NCBI RefSeq assembly: GCF_001429605.1
Contig: NZ_LMSS01000006.1
Span: 331,256-395,255, forward strand
Reading direction: 5' to 3'
DNA length: 64,000 nucleotides
DNA from: Phycicoccus sp. Soil802
Lineage (GTDB): Bacteria > Actinomycetota > Actinomycetes > Actinomycetales > Dermatophilaceae
Shown here: piece by piece, positions 14,559-55,017 of the stretch
Numbering within the stretch: position 1 is the stretch's first letter
Layout: every line of letters begins with the position of its first letter
The notes under the pieces: model-generated
The model's input: only the letters and a program-made list of their open reading frames with translations
Told to the model about the DNA's origin: nothing
The model's database searches: none
Position numbers and translations under genes: made by a program

Positions 14559-14673
14559 GGTCATGAGTGTCAGCGCGAAGCCCCGGCTTGCTGACCAGCA
14601 ACCCTCCTCCGCGGTGGGGTGCTCCGGGTGACGACCGGGCCGTCTGCACCCGCAGCCGGCAAGCGCGGACCCG
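14559..14673 (+). promoter_or_regulatory. SAM-IV riboswitch
   Basis: The leader matches the actinobacterial SAM-IV riboswitch closely. It opens with GGTCATGAG, followed by AAGCCCCGGCTTGCTG, CCAGCAACCCTCC, CGCGGTGGGGTGCTCCGGG, a closing GACC near 14636, and the distal pseudoknot piece GGCAAGCGCGG (14658-14668). All of these blocks are known from the M. tuberculosis SAM-IV RNA. Downstream, GGACCCG/CGGGTCC (about 14667-14689) and GGTCC/GGACC (about 14686-14700) can form competing hairpins next to the AGGAG ribosome site at 14701-14705. This suggests control of translation. It controls the class V aminotransferase at 14714. Confidence 0.88.
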
Positions 14674-48652: not shown

Positions 48653-48658
48653 TAGTCT
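48653..48658 (+). promoter_or_regulatory. -10 box of the cobalamin riboswitch operon
   Basis: TAGTCT a few bases before the start of the riboswitch; predicted transcription start near 48665, only about 80 bp from the divergent ileS start. Confidence 0.55.
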
Positions 48659-48664
48659 GAGCGG

Positions 48665-48889
48665 CGTTGCCCTGAGGTCCCGACCGCTTGGCAACACCCA
48701 CGACGCGACACCAGGGGAAGCCGGTCAGATGCCGGCGCTGACCCGCAACCGTAGGCCGCCTGAAACGCGGCAAGCCGGAACACCTGGTACGCGAAGCGGC
48801 TCCATTTCCGTCGAGGTACGCGGGGCGGAGCCCGGACACCCAGTCCGAGGCCGCCCCCCGATGTCGCTCCAGCGACGCCGGGGGTCTTT
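48665..48889 (+). promoter_or_regulatory. Cobalamin (B12) riboswitch with intrinsic terminator
   Basis: The core reads CACCAGGGGAAGCCGGT, then GATGCCGGCGCTGACCCGC and AACCGTAGGCCG, matching the cobalamin riboswitch consensus (GGGAA...GGTG...GC-GACCCGC-AC-GT). The ACACCAGG/CACCTGGT helix (48709-48716 with 48782-48789) closes the core. Behind it, CCCCCG-GTCGCT/AGCGAC-CGGGGG plus TCTTT (48855-48889) forms a terminator. B12 excess should therefore switch off the downstream transport operon. Confidence 0.9.
48855..48889 (+). terminator. Riboswitch-controlled terminator
   Basis: A 6-bp and a second 6-bp stem separated by a 2x2 internal loop end in TCTTT, one of the few T-tailed hairpins in this window. 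Confidence 0.65.
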
Positions 48890-48943
48890 CACGTTCTGGT
48901 GCCGGTGCACCCGTCGCGACACCGTTCGCTTTGAAGAGGCACC

Positions 48944-50554
48944 ATGCACCGCACCCTTCGCACCGCCCGTCCGGCGGCTGCCCTCGCCCTGGCCCTGGCG
49001 GCCACCCTGGTCGTCCCCAGCGCGGCGTTCGCCGGCACGACCGAGCCGACCGGCACGAGCACCGGCAGCACGAGCACCACCACGCCGTCGACGACGACCA
49101 CGACGGCCACCGAGTCGCCCACGACGACGACACCGCCGACCACCGGCACCGCGACGACGAGCACCGAGTCGTCCACGACGTCGACGACCCCGCCCCCCGC
49201 CACGACGACGACCGCGTCGAAGCCGAAGACCGCCGCGAAGGCCAAGGCCCCGGCCGCGTCGAAGGAGCGGATGCCGTTCGGCGCCAGCTCCTCCCTGCGG
49301 GCCGCCCTCGTGCCGGGTGACAGCTCGGACCAGGCCGCCTACGCCGCGGGCTTCGTGGTCCGCACCCTCGCCGCGCGCGACGACCACTACAACTACCCTG
49401 CCTCGACCTTCTTCGATGGCGGCAACACCATCGACGCGATCCTCGCGCTGGACGGGGCGGGCGCCGGGCTCGACCAGGCGGATGCCACCACCGACTACCT
49501 CGCCGCCCACGTCAACGACTACGTCGGCTACCCCGACCCGCCCGGCTCACCCACCGCCGAGACCTACGCCGGCCCGCTGGGCAAGCTCATCGTCGGCGTG
49601 GTCGCCCAGGGCGGCGACCCCACCGACTTCGGCGGCCAGGACCTGGTCGCGCGGCTCGAGGGCCTGATGACCGTCGACGGCCGGTTCTCCGACAAGTCCA
49701 ACTTCGGTGACCCGACCAACCCGAGCGGCGACTACTCCAACACCATCGGCCAGGTCCTCGACATCATCGCCCTCGGTCGCGCGACCGGCTCGGTCCCGGA
49801 CGCGGCTGGCGACTACCTCCTCGACCAGCAGTGCTCCGACGGCGGGTTCCGCGGCAACCTCGACGTCGCGGGTGCCGCCTGCACGAGCGACGCGGATGCC
49901 ACTGCCTTCGCCGCCCAGGCCCTCGTCGGCCTGCTGGGGGCGGACGACCCGGCCACGCTCGACGCACTCGACTGGCTCTCGTCGCGCCAGGCGCCCAACG
50001 GTGGCTTCCTCAACCAGGACGGCCAGTACAACGCCAACACCGCCGGTGTCGCGGCGCAGGCCTTCGCCGCCGGTGGCCTCGACGACGAGCTCGCGAGCGC
50101 CCAGGAGTTCCTGGCCTCGCTCCAGTTCGACTGCTCCTTCGCAGCCGGCCTGCGCGGCGGGATCGCCTTCACCGCAGCCGACCACGCCACCCTCAAGGCA
50201 GCCCCGACCACGACGGCTGCGATCGACCGCGCGCTGCGGGCCACGCCCCAGGCCACCCTGGGCCTGGCCGGCGACTCGCTGCTGACGGTCAGCGCGGACG
50301 GAGCCGCGGCCACCGCGCCGACGCTCGACTGCCGCACCAGCACGACGACCACCACGTCGCCCGCGACGTCGACGAGCACGTCCTCAGCTCCCTCGACCGG
50401 TAGCAACGACCCGGCTGACCCCGGGTCGGCCACGCCCGGGTCGCTGGCCCTCACCGGCACCGACGTGGCGGCGATGAGCCTGTTGGGCACACTGCTCCTG
50501 CTGGCCGGGGTCGGCGCCATCGTGCTCGCCCGGCGCAAGGGCGTGCACGCCTGA
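48944..50554 (+). CDS. Sortase-anchored alpha-toroid (prenyltransferase-like) protein, candidate B12-binding
   Basis: 536-aa exported protein. Signal peptide 1-30 (PSAAFA), a Thr/Ser-rich stalk (31-100), then an alpha/alpha toroid (about 112-460) with prenyltransferase/squalene-cyclase-type repeats such as LLDQQCSDGGFRG (292-304) and SSRQAPNGGFLN (356-367). Four Cys (297, 313, 397, 463) could form disulfides. A second Thr/Ser linker leads to LALTG (501-505), a helix (511-528) and RRK: an LAxTG signal for class E sortase. The toroid is the fold of the alpha domain of intrinsic factor and transcobalamin. With a cobalamin riboswitch upstream and an ECF importer downstream, a B12-capturing role is likely (inference). 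Its stop overlaps the DUF4430 start. Confidence 0.8.
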   Translation: MHRTLRTARPAAALALALAATLVVPSAAFAGTTEPTGTSTGSTSTTTPSTTTTTATESPTTTTPPTTGTATTSTESSTTSTTPPPATTTTASKPKTAAKAKAPAASKERMPFGASSSLRAALVPGDSSDQAAYAAGFVVRTLAARDDHYNYPASTFFDGGNTIDAILALDGAGAGLDQADATTDYLAAHVNDYVGYPDPPGSPTAETYAGPLGKLIVGVVAQGGDPTDFGGQDLVARLEGLMTVDGRFSDKSNFGDPTNPSGDYSNTIGQVLDIIALGRATGSVPDAAGDYLLDQQCSDGGFRGNLDVAGAACTSDADATAFAAQALVGLLGADDPATLDALDWLSSRQAPNGGFLNQDGQYNANTAGVAAQAFAAGGLDDELASAQEFLASLQFDCSFAAGLRGGIAFTAADHATLKAAPTTTAAIDRALRATPQATLGLAGDSLLTVSADGAAATAPTLDCRTSTTTTTSPATSTSTSSAPSTGSNDPADPGSATPGSLALTGTDVAAMSLLGTLLLLAGVGAIVLARRKGVHA

Positions 50555-51399
50555 TGCGGCTCGTCGCGCGCTTCGTCGCCGTCGCCGGTCTGGTCCTCGC
50601 CGGTGGCCTCGCCCTCCCGGGCGGGGCCGCCCAGGCGGCGGCCTGCAGCAACACGACCGGCGTGACGGTGGTGATCGACTACGGCTCGAGCAGCAGCACG
50701 CTCTGCGCCGCGGACGACACCTCCGCCATGAAGGTGCTCAAGAAGGTCGCCACGGTCGTCAGCCCGGTCCAGTACCCGGGCACGGTGGTCTGCAAGATCA
50801 ACAGCGTCCCCTCCGACCAGTCCTGCCAGCGGATGCCTCCGGCGAGCGCCTACTGGGCGTTCTTCCACGCGCCCCGCGGAGGTTCGTGGACCTACAGCAG
50901 CTCCGGCGTGGCGGACTACGACCCTGCGCCGGGCAGCGTCATCGGGTTCGCGTTCGGCTCCGGTGGGGCCCCCAGCAGCCCCCCTCCCGCCAAGGCTGCC
51001 CCCAAGCCGTCGCCGTCGCCCAGCCCGTCCTCGTCGTCGAGCCGGCCGCCGGCGCCCAAGCCGAAGCCCGCGAGCACCACTCCCCCGCGTCCCAGCAGCT
51101 CGAGCAGCTCGGCCGGCGCGAAGCCCGGCACCACCTCGGCCGCCGGCTCGGTGACCAGGCCCGGCCCGAGGCCGTCGACCACGGCGCCGGGCAGCACGAC
51201 CACCACGGCGCCGAGTGGCACCACCACCGGCACGACCCCCTCGACGGACTCGACCGGCGACGGCGCGAACGCCGCAGCGGCCCGGGCGGACTCGACCGAC
51301 TCGGGCTCGCCGACCACCCTGCTGGCCGGTCTCGGCCTGGTCGGGCTGGTCGGCGCCGGCGCGGCATACCTGGCGATCCGTCGCCGAGCCGCCAGCTGA
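50554..51399 (+). CDS. DUF4430-domain membrane-anchored protein, candidate B12-binding beta domain
   Basis: 281 aa. Signal peptide 1-29 (AAQAA), then a DUF4430 domain (about 33-136) with GVTVVIDYG, four Cys (31, 51, 80, 91) and the hallmark YWAFFHAPRGGSWTYSSSG (100-118) followed by PAPGSVIGFAFGSG. A long Pro/Ser/Thr wall-spanning linker (139-250) ends in one helix and RRRAAS, so it stays in the membrane. DUF4430 is the family of the beta domain of intrinsic factor/transcobalamin, which covers the cobalamin held by the alpha toroid. Encoded directly after the toroid protein (TGATG overlap), it looks like its functional other half (inference). Confidence 0.8.
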   Translation: MRLVARFVAVAGLVLAGGLALPGGAAQAAACSNTTGVTVVIDYGSSSSTLCAADDTSAMKVLKKVATVVSPVQYPGTVVCKINSVPSDQSCQRMPPASAYWAFFHAPRGGSWTYSSSGVADYDPAPGSVIGFAFGSGGAPSSPPPAKAAPKPSPSPSPSSSSSRPPAPKPKPASTTPPRPSSSSSSAGAKPGTTSAAGSVTRPGPRPSTTAPGSTTTTAPSGTTTGTTPSTDSTGDGANAAAARADSTDSGSPTTLLAGLGLVGLVGAGAAYLAIRRRAAS

Positions 51400-51404
51400 G
51401 GCTC

Positions 51405-52493
51405 GTGCGCACGGCAGGCTCCCCGCTGGCCCGACACCTCCACCCGGTCGCCTGGTGGGTGTGGGCGATCGGGCTGGCGGTGGCCTGCTCCCGCACCAGT
51501 AACCCCCTGTTGCTCCTGCTCGCCGTGACCGTCGCCTGCCTCGTGGTCGCGGCCAAGCGCGGCAGCTCCCCGTGGGCGCGGGCGTTCCGGCTGTACCTCG
51601 TGCTCGGGGCGGTGATCATCGTCCTGCGGGTCCTGCTGCACGTCGTGGTCGGCTACAAGCTCGGCAGCACCCGGCTCTACACCCTGCCCAGTGTCGAGCT
51701 GCCCGGCATCACCCTCCTCGGCCCGCTCTACCTCGAGGGGCTGCTGGCCGCGGCGGTCGAGGGTCTGCGGCTGGCCAGCCTGATCGCCTGCATCGGCGCA
51801 GCCAACGCGCTGGCCAACCCCAAGCGCCTCCTGCGGGCGCTGCCGAGTGCGCTGCACGAGATCGGCACCGCCGTCGTCATCTCGGTCACGGTCGCACCGC
51901 AGCTGGCGGAGAGCGTCCAGCGGGTCCGGCGCGCCCGGGTGCTGCGGGGCGAGGGTGGCACCGGCCTACGGTCGGTCGGCCGGGTAGCGCTGCCGGTCCT
52001 CCAGGACACCCTCGACCGGTCGCTCTCGCTCGCCTCGGCGATGGACTCGCGCGGGTACGGGCGCCGGACCGAGCAGTCGCCGGCCACGCGGCGGGTCACC
52101 GCCGCCCTGACCCTCACCGGGCTGCTGGGCGCCGGTATCGGGATGTACGGCCTGCTCGACAGCACGGCGCCGGCGGCCATCGGCCTGCCCATGCTCGTCC
52201 TCGGCCTCGCCCTGTCGGCGATCGGCCTGCGGGTGGGCGGCCGCAGCGTGCAGCGCAGCGTCTACCGGCCCGACCCGTGGGCGCTGCCCGAGTGGCTCGT
52301 CGCCGCCTCGGGCCTGCTGGCCGCCGTCCTCGTGGTCGTGCAGTCCGCCCGTGCGCCGGGCACCCTCGTCCTCCCCGTCGACCCGCTTGCTGCCCCCGCG
52401 TTGCCGCTGCTGCCCGTCCTCGGGATCCTCGTGGCCGCCCTCCCGGCGTTCGTCGCCCCCGACCCGCCGGTGGCCCGGCGAGGAGAGCCATGA
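51405..52493 (+). CDS. ECF transporter transmembrane subunit (EcfT/CbiQ family)
   Basis: 362-aa membrane protein with about 7-8 helices. The two ATPase-coupling motifs of EcfT are seen: RRARVLRG (about 177-184) and LASAMDSRGYG (about 209-219). GTG start 5 nt after the DUF4430 stop; its stop overlaps the ATPase start (ATGA). The C-terminal third contains extra helices beyond a minimal EcfT. It joins the S subunit to the fused ATPase. Names in use for B12 ECF systems include CbrV. Confidence 0.85.
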   Translation: MRTAGSPLARHLHPVAWWVWAIGLAVACSRTSNPLLLLLAVTVACLVVAAKRGSSPWARAFRLYLVLGAVIIVLRVLLHVVVGYKLGSTRLYTLPSVELPGITLLGPLYLEGLLAAAVEGLRLASLIACIGAANALANPKRLLRALPSALHEIGTAVVISVTVAPQLAESVQRVRRARVLRGEGGTGLRSVGRVALPVLQDTLDRSLSLASAMDSRGYGRRTEQSPATRRVTAALTLTGLLGAGIGMYGLLDSTAPAAIGLPMLVLGLALSAIGLRVGGRSVQRSVYRPDPWALPEWLVAASGLLAAVLVVVQSARAPGTLVLPVDPLAAPALPLLPVLGILVAALPAFVAPDPPVARRGEP

Positions 52494-54169
52494 GCGGCCC
52501 CGTCGACCCGCACGCCCCCGTCGTCTTCGACCGCGTCACCATCCGGTATGCCGATCGCCCTCGTCCCGCGCTCCGCGCGGCGTCGTTCGCCCTCCAGGAG
52601 GGTGAGCTCGTCGTCGTCACCGGCCGAACGGGCTCGGGCAAGTCGACCCTGCTGGGCGCGGTCAACGGCACCGTCCCCCACTTCACCGGTGGCCACCTCT
52701 CGGGCCGGGTGTCGGTCTTCGGCCGGGACACCCGCAACCACCGGCCGCGGGACCTCGCGGGCGTGGTCGGCGTCGTGCGCCAGGACCCGTTGGCAGGCTT
52801 CGTGACGGACACCGTGGAGGAGGAGCTCGCCTACACGCTCGAACAGCTGGCGCTCGACCCGGCAGCCATGCGCCGCCGGGTGGAGGAGGTGCTCGACCTG
52901 CTGGGCATCGCCGACCTGCGCGACGCGCCGTTGCGCGACCTCTCGGGCGGGCAGCAGCAGCGGGTGGCCATCGGGTCGGTGCTCACGGCCAGCCCGCGCC
53001 TCCTCGTGCTCGACGAACCCACCTCGGCCCTCGACCCGACCGGCGCCGAGGAGGTGCTCGCGACGCTCTCGCGGCTGGTGCACGACCTCGGCCTGACCGT
53101 CCTGCTCTCGGAGCACCGGCTGGAGCGGATCGTCGGGGCGGCCGACCGGGTCATCGAGGTGCACGACGACGGCACGGTCAGCGACGGCCGACCGAGCGAC
53201 GTCATGGCCACCTCGGCCCTCGCGCCACCGGTGGTCCACCTCGGACGCTGGGCCGGCTGGGACCCGCTGCCCCTGACGGTCCGGGATGCCCGGCGTGCAG
53301 CGACTGGACTCCGCGCCGACCTTTCCCGCAACCTGGGCGCCCCGGGGGGTGCTCAGGTTGCGGGAGTGGAGACACACCCCCTCGGGCCTGAGCGCCTCAT
53401 CGCCTCGGCCGTCTCGGTCACCCACGGCACGGTGGCCGCGGTGCGCTCGGTGGACCTGTCCCTGCGTGACGGTGAGCTCGCAGTCCTCATGGGCCGCAAC
53501 GGTTCTGGCAAGTCCTCGTTGCTCTGGGCCCTGCACGGCAGCGGCACCCGCAGTGACGGTGCGGTCACCGTCGTCACGGCCACCGGCGCACGGGTCGACC
53601 CCGCCGCCGAGGCTCCGCGCACCCGGCGCGGCCACGTCGGGCTGGTCCCCCAGAGCGCCCCGGACCTGCTCTACCTCGACTCGGTGCACGCCGAGTGCCA
53701 GCAGTCCGACCACGAGTCGGGAGCCGCACCGGGCGCAACGCGCGCCACGCTCGACCGGCTCGCACCCGGCATACCGGACGACCACCACCCGCGCGACCTG
53801 TCCGAGGGGCAGCAGCTGGCCCTCGTGCTCGCGATCCAGCTCTCCGCGTCTCCGGGGGCGCTGCTCCTCGACGAACCCACCCGGGGGCTGGACTACCCCG
53901 GCAAGGCGGCCCTGGCCACCGTCCTGCGCGATCTCGCCGCAGGGGGGACCGCGCTGGCGGTGGCGACCCACGACGTGGAGTTCGCCGCCACGGCGGCCGA
54001 CCGGGTCGTGGTGCTGGCCGAGGGGAAGGTCGTCGCGGACGGGCCGGCCACCGACATCCTGTGCGACTCCCCCGCGTTCGCACCACAGGTGGCCAAGGTG
54101 CTCGCCCCGGCGCGAGTGCTGCGCCTCGACCAGGTGCTGGGCGCCGCCACCAGGCTCGGGGCACCCTGA
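52490..54169 (+). CDS. ECF transporter fused double ATPase (EcfA-EcfA')
   Basis: 559-aa ABC ATPase with two nucleotide-binding domains in one chain. First half: Walker A GRTGSGKST (45-53), LSGGQQQR (about 151), LLVLDEPTSALD (about 170-181) and SEHRLER. Second half: GRNGSGKSS (about 335-343), a variant signature LSEGQQ (about 437), LLLDEPTRGLD (about 456) and VATHDVEF. Both sites keep the catalytic Glu. The joining linker (about 279-292) is encoded by a 12-bp perfect inverted repeat. It powers the EcfT/S complex. ATGA overlap with the T gene, TGATG with the S gene. Confidence 0.9.
   Translation: MSGPVDPHAPVVFDRVTIRYADRPRPALRAASFALQEGELVVVTGRTGSGKSTLLGAVNGTVPHFTGGHLSGRVSVFGRDTRNHRPRDLAGVVGVVRQDPLAGFVTDTVEEELAYTLEQLALDPAAMRRRVEEVLDLLGIADLRDAPLRDLSGGQQQRVAIGSVLTASPRLLVLDEPTSALDPTGAEEVLATLSRLVHDLGLTVLLSEHRLERIVGAADRVIEVHDDGTVSDGRPSDVMATSALAPPVVHLGRWAGWDPLPLTVRDARRAATGLRADLSRNLGAPGGAQVAGVETHPLGPERLIASAVSVTHGTVAAVRSVDLSLRDGELAVLMGRNGSGKSSLLWALHGSGTRSDGAVTVVTATGARVDPAAEAPRTRRGHVGLVPQSAPDLLYLDSVHAECQQSDHESGAAPGATRATLDRLAPGIPDDHHPRDLSEGQQLALVLAIQLSASPGALLLDEPTRGLDYPGKAALATVLRDLAAGGTALAVATHDVEFAATAADRVVVLAEGKVVADGPATDILCDSPAFAPQVAKVLAPARVLRLDQVLGAATRLGAP
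53324..53365. repeat. In-frame palindrome in the ATPase linker
   Basis: TCCCGCAACCTG (53324-53335) and CAGGTTGCGGGA (53354-53365) are exact inverted repeats inside coding sequence, joining the two ATP-binding halves. The stem shows no other constraint of the protein family and resembles the intergenic palindromes. Confidence 0.7.
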
Positions 54170-55017
54170 TGGCCACCCCGATGCGCGCCATCGCCCTGCG
54201 TCCGCGCTCCACGGCGGCGCTCGTCCTGGTGTCCGTGGCCGGGCTGCTGGCCTTCCTCTGGCCGCTCTTCGCGACGGCCGGCTCGCGGCTCGGCCAGCAC
54301 GCCGACGCCCCGCTGGTCTTCGCGCTCCTGCTGCCGCTGCTGATGGCGGTGGTGCTGTTCGAGATCAGCGAGGGTGGCCTGGACGTCAAGGCGGTGGCGA
54401 TGCTTGGCGTGCTGTCGGCGGTCGGTGCTGCGCTGCGCCCGCTGGGCGCCGGCACTGCCGGGCTCGAGACGGTCTTCTTCCTGCTCGTCCTGGGGGGCCG
54501 GGTCTTCGGTCCCGCCTTCGGGTTCGTGCTCGGCTCGACCACGCTGTTCGCCTCGGCGCTGGTCACCGGTGGGGTCGGCCCGTGGCTGCCCTACCAGATG
54601 CTCGGTGCCGCCTGGGTGGGTCTGGGCGCCGGCCTGCTCCCGCGGGTCCCCGGGCGCTGGGAGCTGCTCCTCCTGGCCGGCTACGGCGCGGTGGCCGGGC
54701 TGCTCTACGGGGTGGCGCTCAACTTCTCGTTCTGGCCGTTCGCCAGCGGGTTGGCCAGCGACCTGTCGTTCGTCGCCGGTGCCGCACCGTGGGAGAACCT
54801 GCGGCGGTTCGGGCTCTTCTCGCTGGCCACGTCGGTCTGGTGGGACGTCGGGCGCGCGGTCACCAACGTCGTCCTCATCGCCGTCACCGGGCGGGCTGTC
54901 CTGGGCACGCTGCGCCGGGCCTCGCGACGGGCCGCCTTCGACGCGGACGTGGAGTTCGCCGACGTGGAGCTCGCCGACGCCGACGAGCCGGCCACGCGGC
55001 ATACGCTGCACGGGTGA
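54169..55017 (+). CDS. ECF transporter S component, probable cobalamin specificity
   Basis: 282-aa membrane protein with about six helices and a charged C-terminal tail. The central VKAVAMLGVLSAVGAALRPLG and FGPAFGFVLGSTTLFASALVTGGVGPWLPYQML regions have the Ala/Gly pattern of ECF substrate-binding S subunits. It completes an S-A-A'-T set behind a cobalamin riboswitch, so it likely binds B12 or a precursor (CbrT-type; inference). ATG overlaps the ATPase stop. The last codons hold a -10 box for the next gene. Confidence 0.83.
   Translation: MATPMRAIALRPRSTAALVLVSVAGLLAFLWPLFATAGSRLGQHADAPLVFALLLPLLMAVVLFEISEGGLDVKAVAMLGVLSAVGAALRPLGAGTAGLETVFFLLVLGGRVFGPAFGFVLGSTTLFASALVTGGVGPWLPYQMLGAAWVGLGAGLLPRVPGRWELLLLAGYGAVAGLLYGVALNFSFWPFASGLASDLSFVAGAAPWENLRRFGLFSLATSVWWDVGRAVTNVVLIAVTGRAVLGTLRRASRRAAFDADVEFADVELADADEPATRHTLHG
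55002..55007 (+). promoter_or_regulatory. -10 box of the GlcD-like gene, leaderless promoter
   Basis: TACGCT, then 6 nt, then GTG at 55014, inside the last codons of the S-component gene. It would uncouple the oxidase from B12 control. Confidence 0.45.

Follow-up and report, generated by a model that had tools for sequence, protein, structure and literature searches.

A cobalamin-riboswitch operon of Phycicoccus sp. Soil802 probably encodes an ECF importer served by two surface proteins of transcobalamin-related fold

The vertebrate cobalamin (vitamin B12) carriers transcobalamin and intrinsic factor combine an α/α toroid with an SLBB β domain in a single chain, and haptocorrin has the same architecture. 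In Bacteroides, the lipoprotein BtuG likewise captures B12 at the surface ahead of an importer, but its fold is unrelated and its setting is the outer membrane. Energy-coupling factor (ECF) transporters of group I have dedicated T, A, A′ and S subunits encoded by a single operon; CbrT shares its ECF module with other S components (group II). For Gram-positive bacteria, secreted SLBB/toroid proteins encoded in CbiO/CbiQ operons were predicted in 2007 by Burroughs et al. to scavenge B12 (PMC1796856). Here, we analyse a five-gene operon behind a cobalamin riboswitch in Phycicoccus sp. Soil802, which encodes a toroid protein, an SLBB protein and an ECF importer. The window, that is, the whole stretch of DNA analysed, comprises 64,000 nt (NZ_LMSS01000006.1:331,256–395,255, forward strand), and all positions are in window numbering. 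We consider it likely, with a probability of roughly 0.7, that the operon serves the uptake of cobalamin (or, more broadly, corrinoids), as a riboswitch-controlled, one-operon ECF importer fed by two anchored surface proteins of transcobalamin-related fold.

In the accessible text of Burroughs et al., the SLBB clade resembles the window in several ways: its SLBB proteins are secreted, some with Gram-positive anchors, toroid fusions in either order are common, and the operons encode a CbiO-like ATPase and a CbiQ-like protein. Its members are given there as low-GC Gram-positives, planctomycetes and euryarchaea; in contrast to the window, that text mentions neither actinobacterial members nor a division into two anchored proteins, and neither a riboswitch nor an S component (PMC1796856). 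An ECF module of acI Actinobacteria, proposed as a cobalamin transporter in 2017, likewise lies behind cobalamin/AdoCbl riboswitches, but toroid or SLBB proteins are not mentioned in the part of that paper available (PMC5301498). ECF-CbrT is similar in its ECF-type B12 import; the portion of its description at hand reports no secreted carrier proteins (PMC5997447). Literature searches, which left out most subscription journals, yielded no identifiable account of a split actinobacterial pair, its riboswitch link or a permutation. As far as these searches show, the actinobacterial split form, the riboswitch link, a function for SCO2321/SCO2322 and the apparent permutation of both halves are new. 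The split-carrier interpretation had been put forward in a first-pass annotation of the window, made from the sequence; it gains from the riboswitch link, the β fold, the fusion matches and the genome content, whereas the general idea already stands in the accessible text of Burroughs et al. (PMC1796856). If correct, the assignment would give a predicted role, across a large bacterial phylum, to two NCBIfam families that have only locus tags as names (SCO2321 and SCO2322), and would identify the probable B12 importer in actinobacteria that use the vitamin without necessarily making it. The split, fused and apparently permuted bacterial forms offer material for studying how a B12 clamp is assembled and how its ligand is handed to S, and they bear on the proposal, in the same partly accessible source, that animals acquired their B12 carriers from bacteria (PMC1796856).

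Operon layout, riboswitch linkage and gene neighbourhood

All elements of the operon lie on the + strand. The riboswitch aptamer core (48714..48841) covers positions 45–169 of the Rfam model RF00174 and scores 35.1 bits against a gathering score of 31.5. A GC-rich hairpin 3′ of the aptamer (48855..48884), a weak candidate for the expression platform, forms the stem in a fold of 48842–48900. No intrinsic terminator was called at this hairpin and the fold z score is only −1.1, so the terminator reading was dropped. The first gene (48944..50554) encodes a secreted toroid protein of 536 aa, which matches SCO2321_fam at 9.6e-21, below the family cut-off, and Prenyltrans at 0.023. Judged by eye from the translation, it has a signal-peptide-like N terminus and a Thr/Ser stalk ahead of the toroid domain (about 49280–50350), and in its C-terminal part an LALTG sorting-like motif (50444–50458) followed by a hydrophobic stretch and an RRK tail; the NCBIfam LAXTG/LAVTG models score below cut-off on this protein. 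LAXTG is described in the accessible part of one account as a class E sortase signal (PMC5148588). The second gene (50554..51399) encodes a secreted, transcobalamin β-domain-like SLBB protein of 281 aa, identified by structure modelling and Foldseek. Its translation, again by eye, begins with a signal-peptide-like N terminus and continues through the SLBB domain (about 50638–50970) into a Pro/Ser/Thr stalk, a C-terminal hydrophobic stretch and an RRR tail.

The importer genes follow. EcfT (51405..52493, 362 aa, GTG start) matches Pfam CbiQ at 3.8e-11; the fused EcfA-A′ ATPase (52490..54169, 559 aa) contains two ABC_tran stretches (3e-45) and matches ECF_ATPase_1 at 2.6e-74, below its cut-off; and the S component (54169..55017, 282 aa) matches PF12822 ECF_trnsprt at 5.2e-7, its 30.3 bits falling just short of the cut-off of 30.7. 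The S family is conserved, with 30 members aligned. Toroid and SLBB genes overlap by 1 nt, SLBB and EcfT are separated by 5 nt, EcfT and EcfA-A′ overlap by 4 nt, and EcfA-A′ and S by 1 nt. By gene calls and Pfam/NCBIfam matches, T, A, A′ and S thus all lie within one operon, as in group I ECF transporters. The first-pass annotation had described a riboswitch with five tightly packed genes, a secreted toroid with LALTG, a second secreted protein with a C-terminal anchor, and EcfT, fused EcfA-A′ and an S component, and all of this agrees with the matches and junctions above. The arrangement is not due to chance, because it is conserved across dozens of genomes.

The riboswitch link extends well beyond the window. 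A genome-wide RF00174 search of 38 genomes, Soil802 included, placed a match 54–402 bp upstream of the first toroid/SLBB domain, on the same strand, in all 38 fetched loci covered, 18 of them over gathering. The remaining two fetched toroid loci also have a match just upstream (G008, 28.8 bits; G130, 32.4 bits; L and G numbers are our handles for loci and genomes), which brings RF00174 to 40 of 40 such loci, 19 of them over gathering. Of the first 30 short loci, 17 were scanned with Rfam, and nine of these had a cobalamin-type riboswitch at gathering score (seven RF00174, two AdoCbl-II). Among six scanned loci with toroid/SLBB fusions, a gathering-level riboswitch lies just upstream in L094, L096 and L138 and elsewhere in L111; the fusion locus L160 has a riboswitch of 62.6 bits. 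No riboswitch at gathering score was found by locus scan in L071 (the nearest relative), L080 or L084.

Three loci (L041, L063 and L070) carry a toroid–SLBB pair with a riboswitch and no ECF gene within the fetched stretch. Soil802 itself has a second cobalamin riboswitch (83.7 bits; L151, G000:C1:384000-393000), which on reading lies upstream of a ribonucleotide-reductase-like frame. In G081, a genome of the same family without an S match, five RF00174 matches, four of them over 84 bits, fall within one 50-kb stretch (C2:180963-231146), perhaps a B12 biosynthesis region.

The conservation of the neighbourhood was read from two sets of loci. One consists of 40 regions fetched around SCO2321_fam matches, in which the presence of a toroid is no evidence. 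SCO2321_fam matches 100 of 197 genomes of the class (E ≤ 0.001), 15 over its cut-off, and many of the weak matches are likely to be other toroid proteins. An SLBB domain lies in the same stretch in 38 of the 40 regions, and 35 contain one or more ECF genes; in both regions without SLBB (L034 and L044), the contig ends within the toroid. The other set was collected with the S component alone as query and comprises the best 80 of at least 495 confirmed relatives, one of which (L124) is labelled Chloroflexi; the closest among the matches listed is from Phycicoccus sp. Root101, at 89% identity. In 60 of these loci the upstream sequence extends for 6.5 kb or more; among them, EcfT and EcfA are each present in 60/60, SLBB in 58/60 and a toroid in 48/60. 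Co-occurrence of both domains beside ECF genes, which the first-pass annotation had proposed as a check, is thus seen in relatives. Ten further stretches with middling S scores all contain SLBB, although in L161 the match reaches only 24 bits and is on the other strand. In the phylum sample, S has matches in 134 of 396 genomes (E ≤ 0.001), many of these matches being weak, and a search of plasmids for the SLBB domain gave matches in 5 of 72,556 records. Four loci (L050, L088, L139 and L145) have two tandem toroid–SLBB pairs before one ECF set, which suggests receptor duplication.

Folds, fusions and an apparent permutation

The AlphaFold2 model of the window SLBB domain has a predicted local distance difference test score (pLDDT) of 87.8. 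In a Foldseek search of the PDB, its seven best matches are all transcobalamin, including the isolated transcobalamin β domain 5no0, with E values of 8.5e-4 to 6.3e-3, of which only the first is below 0.001, and template modelling (TM) scores of 0.54–0.60; the next match follows at E 0.076. As modelled, the fold of this β-grasp protein is that of the transcobalamin β domain. The DUF4430 label that the protein had been given holds by fold and fails by profile: Pfam PF14478 has no match in the window protein, in 27 aligned domains including that of the window, or in the Soil802 genome, so the assignment as transcobalamin-type rests on the fold. Compared singly with PDB sequences, the window proteins gave nothing useful (best carbonic anhydrase, 0.19; Vps45, 0.0086, over a stretch including the Pro/Ser-rich part).

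Eight clear toroid/SLBB fusions lie beside ECF genes, three in toroid–SLBB order (L084, L094 and L160) and five in SLBB–toroid order (L069, L080, L096, L111 and L138); a ninth (L104) lies on the opposite strand at a contig end. Two other candidates were set aside: in L052 the two matches are in different, overlapping frames, and in L072 the SLBB part is weak at 40 bits. Toroid and β domain share one chain in the transcobalamin/intrinsic factor family and in the relatives L094, L084 and L160; in the window, the genes are split. In L094, fewer than ten residues separate the two hidden Markov model matches. An AlphaFold2 model of this natural fusion, ligand-free and from a mostly unpaired input alignment, reached a pLDDT of 90.5 and a predicted TM score of 0.81; the mixed toroid/SLBB alignment A8 comprises 56 rows picked from a larger set for clean placement. 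Transcobalamin and intrinsic factor entries occupy Foldseek ranks 1–12 against the PDB (1.5e-9 to 3.4e-7), in colinear alignments of 465–487 columns in which the toroid of the fusion falls on the α domain; matched chains of 381–409 residues in TC:CD320 entries were taken as transcobalamin. A squalene-hopene cyclase comes next (3.9e-7, TM 0.49). The vertebrate carriers are thus the best PDB matches of both models, at identities of 13–19%. They differ from the window in being one chain rather than two separate anchored proteins, and their domain arrangement is not reproduced in the fused model. The L094 model supports both folds and their order without the transcobalamin domain arrangement; the structural match to the transcobalamin halves, on which the first-pass annotation had made its reading depend, is seen for the β domain and in the ranking of the fusion, and not in the placement of the two domains in the whole chain.

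The toroid sequences have a wider kinship. Their profile (A5) matches squalene-hopene cyclase in the PDB at 3.5e-28, together with complement/macroglobulin domains, and among 25 aligned toroids SQHop_cyclase_C is found in 21 and TED in 18 (E up to 1). PF01122 Cobalamin_bind is absent from the window proteins by Pfam search, weak in three of the 25 aligned toroids (best 0.04) and reaches 0.11 in L094.

Two NCBIfam families, SCO2321 family membrane protein (NF053823) and SCO2322 family protein (NF040672), are neighbouring families of the same operon type as the window pair. The window proteins score below their cut-offs, at 74.1 bits against 300 for SCO2321_fam and 23.6 against 85 for SCO2322_fam. 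The N-terminal part of the window toroid matches SCO2321_fam 244–352 and its C-terminal part 50–253. When permuted-type sequences were doubled, one continuous match resulted; the score rose by over 10 bits in 8 of 14 toroids and by at least about 5 bits in 11 of 14 SLBBs. The reverse test gave a gain in 6/6 toroids and in no SLBB (0/6) of more than about 2 bits, and same-type controls showed no gain on doubling (12/12). From these sequence comparisons, the SCO2321/SCO2322-type toroids and SLBBs differ from the window type by an apparent circular permutation. Both proteins look permuted in L051, L052, L054–L065, L067 and L070. Streptomyces records, among others, hold the SCO2321/SCO2322 type (for example L115 and L119), and some Streptomyces records hold the window type (for example L087 and L101).

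Substrate, mechanism and competing explanations

The Soil802 genome encodes six PF02310 B12-binding domains and has no CbiC match. Of the other B12 importer types, those searched gave one weak partial FecCD (BtuC-type) match and no ABC_membrane_2 (BacA-type) match. Four genomes of the same order (G002, G094, G117 and G148) have a lone SLBB protein followed by a single polypeptide that combines EcfT, the two ATPase domains and S. Each of the four also has a convergent metH gene, over the NCBIfam equivalog cut-off, which ends no more than 2.6 kb from the ECF gene (in G002 and G148 the two genes abut directly) and holds the only B12-binding domain of the genome. These genomes have no RF00174 match genome-wide at E ≤ 0.01 and no toroid in the fetched stretch. 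Their one-polypeptide ECF proteins (EcfT-EcfA-EcfA′-S, about 1,000 aa) lie on the − strand at L154:5608-8625, L152:6037-9060, L155:5617-8811 and L156:5842-9243, and the SLBB protein that precedes the one in L154 has a lipobox-like sequence. In G573 and G620, B12-binding frames of 1,214 and 1,234 aa lie within about 3.2 kb of S. Across 79 genomes of the order, 22 match S strongly (E < 1e-60), and 21 of these have a B12-binding domain over cut-off; so do 14 of the 57 others, among which G599 (weak S, 3.3e-18) was counted (Fisher p 5e-9, kinship uncorrected). Because genome content, metH linkage and this association all point the same way, the substrate assignment does not depend on the riboswitch alone; the substrate is likely B12 or a close corrinoid. 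We rejected a reading of the operon as one of unknown function on account of the riboswitch and metH linkage.

Under B12 limitation, the riboswitch would permit expression of the operon. The SLBB protein, held at the membrane by its flexible stalk, would pick up the corrinoid on the cell surface. The toroid protein, for which LALTG would provide the wall anchor, could close over this ligand in the manner of the transcobalamin α domain. The SLBB protein would then hand the ligand to the S component, through which the EcfT-A-A′ module would drive it into the cell. A joint clamp on B12 formed by both window proteins is plausible. The SLBB domain, present in 58/60 loci, is more likely to be the central part of the receptor, and the toroid, a common partner, probably completes the pocket where it occurs. 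A fuller version, a two-component transcobalamin whose separately anchored α and β halves close on surface B12 and pass it to a dedicated S component, and whose halves were permuted in parallel while remaining a matched pair, is tentative, with its chances somewhat short of even. Were it true, parallel permutation would be expected if the termini of each half face away from a conserved shared interface.

Several observations weigh against uptake of B12 by such a carrier pair and importer. Twenty-one of the 40 riboswitch matches score below the Rfam gathering score. A toroid is lacking from the fetched stretch in 10 of the 58 SLBB-containing S-selected loci, even with permissive thresholds, and is found in only 4 of the 10 further S-containing stretches (L157–L160). 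G611 has S but no B12-binding match. In PDB sequences, the S profile A1 finds no solved S component, CbrT included, profile A4 finds antibody chains only and no transcobalamin, and no transcobalamin is among the best 60 of the 79 matches of profile A5, which are terpene cyclases and complement domains. Whole-chain superposition of the L094 model on transcobalamin is poor (TM 0.34–0.39, root-mean-square deviation about 24–25 Å). The window toroid is assigned through its sequence likeness to that of L094 (243 bits for the latter with the window-type toroid model), and the structure modelled is that of L094 and not of the window toroid.

Some of these points would fit an arrangement in which SLBB alone is an ECF-docking B12 receptor and the toroid, rather than forming a clamp, reaches through the wall or takes B12 from other carriers. 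Such an arrangement is consistent with the toroid-less loci, where in four of the seven scanned (L077, L078, L086 and L107) the SLBB domain is closely preceded by a riboswitch over gathering (L128, L133 and L136 have none at gathering score), with the lone SLBB and single-chain ECF near metH in four genomes, and with the missing transcobalamin arrangement in the L094 model. It accounts less well for the toroid in 48/60 S-selected loci, for direct toroid–SLBB fusions such as L160 and the closely joined L094, for the colinear alignment of the latter to transcobalamin, and for riboswitch-headed toroid–SLBB pairs that lack ECF genes in the fetched stretch. We regard it as unlikely, at between one chance in five and one in four.

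The identity of the substrate leaves room for a further alternative, import of cobalt or of a corrinoid precursor such as cobinamide instead of complete B12. EcfT belongs to the CbiQ family, and cobalamin riboswitches also govern cobalt importers; yet cobalt would not feed de novo synthesis in a genome without CbiC, the S component matches ECF_trnsprt and not CbiM, and both the nearby metH of relatives and the transcobalamin β-domain fold speak for the complete cofactor. This makes the alternative improbable, although cobinamide may be a substrate. The profile matches of the toroids could also be taken to mean a terpene-cyclase-like or complement-TED-like domain with a role unrelated to B12. 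Terpene cyclases and complement domains share the α/α toroid fold with transcobalamin, however, and the toroid is linked to riboswitch, SLBB and ECF genes and is fused to SLBB, which leaves this explanation a very small chance. Outside the B12 operon, the window contains a strong SAM-IV riboswitch (110.7 bits) at 14559–14671.

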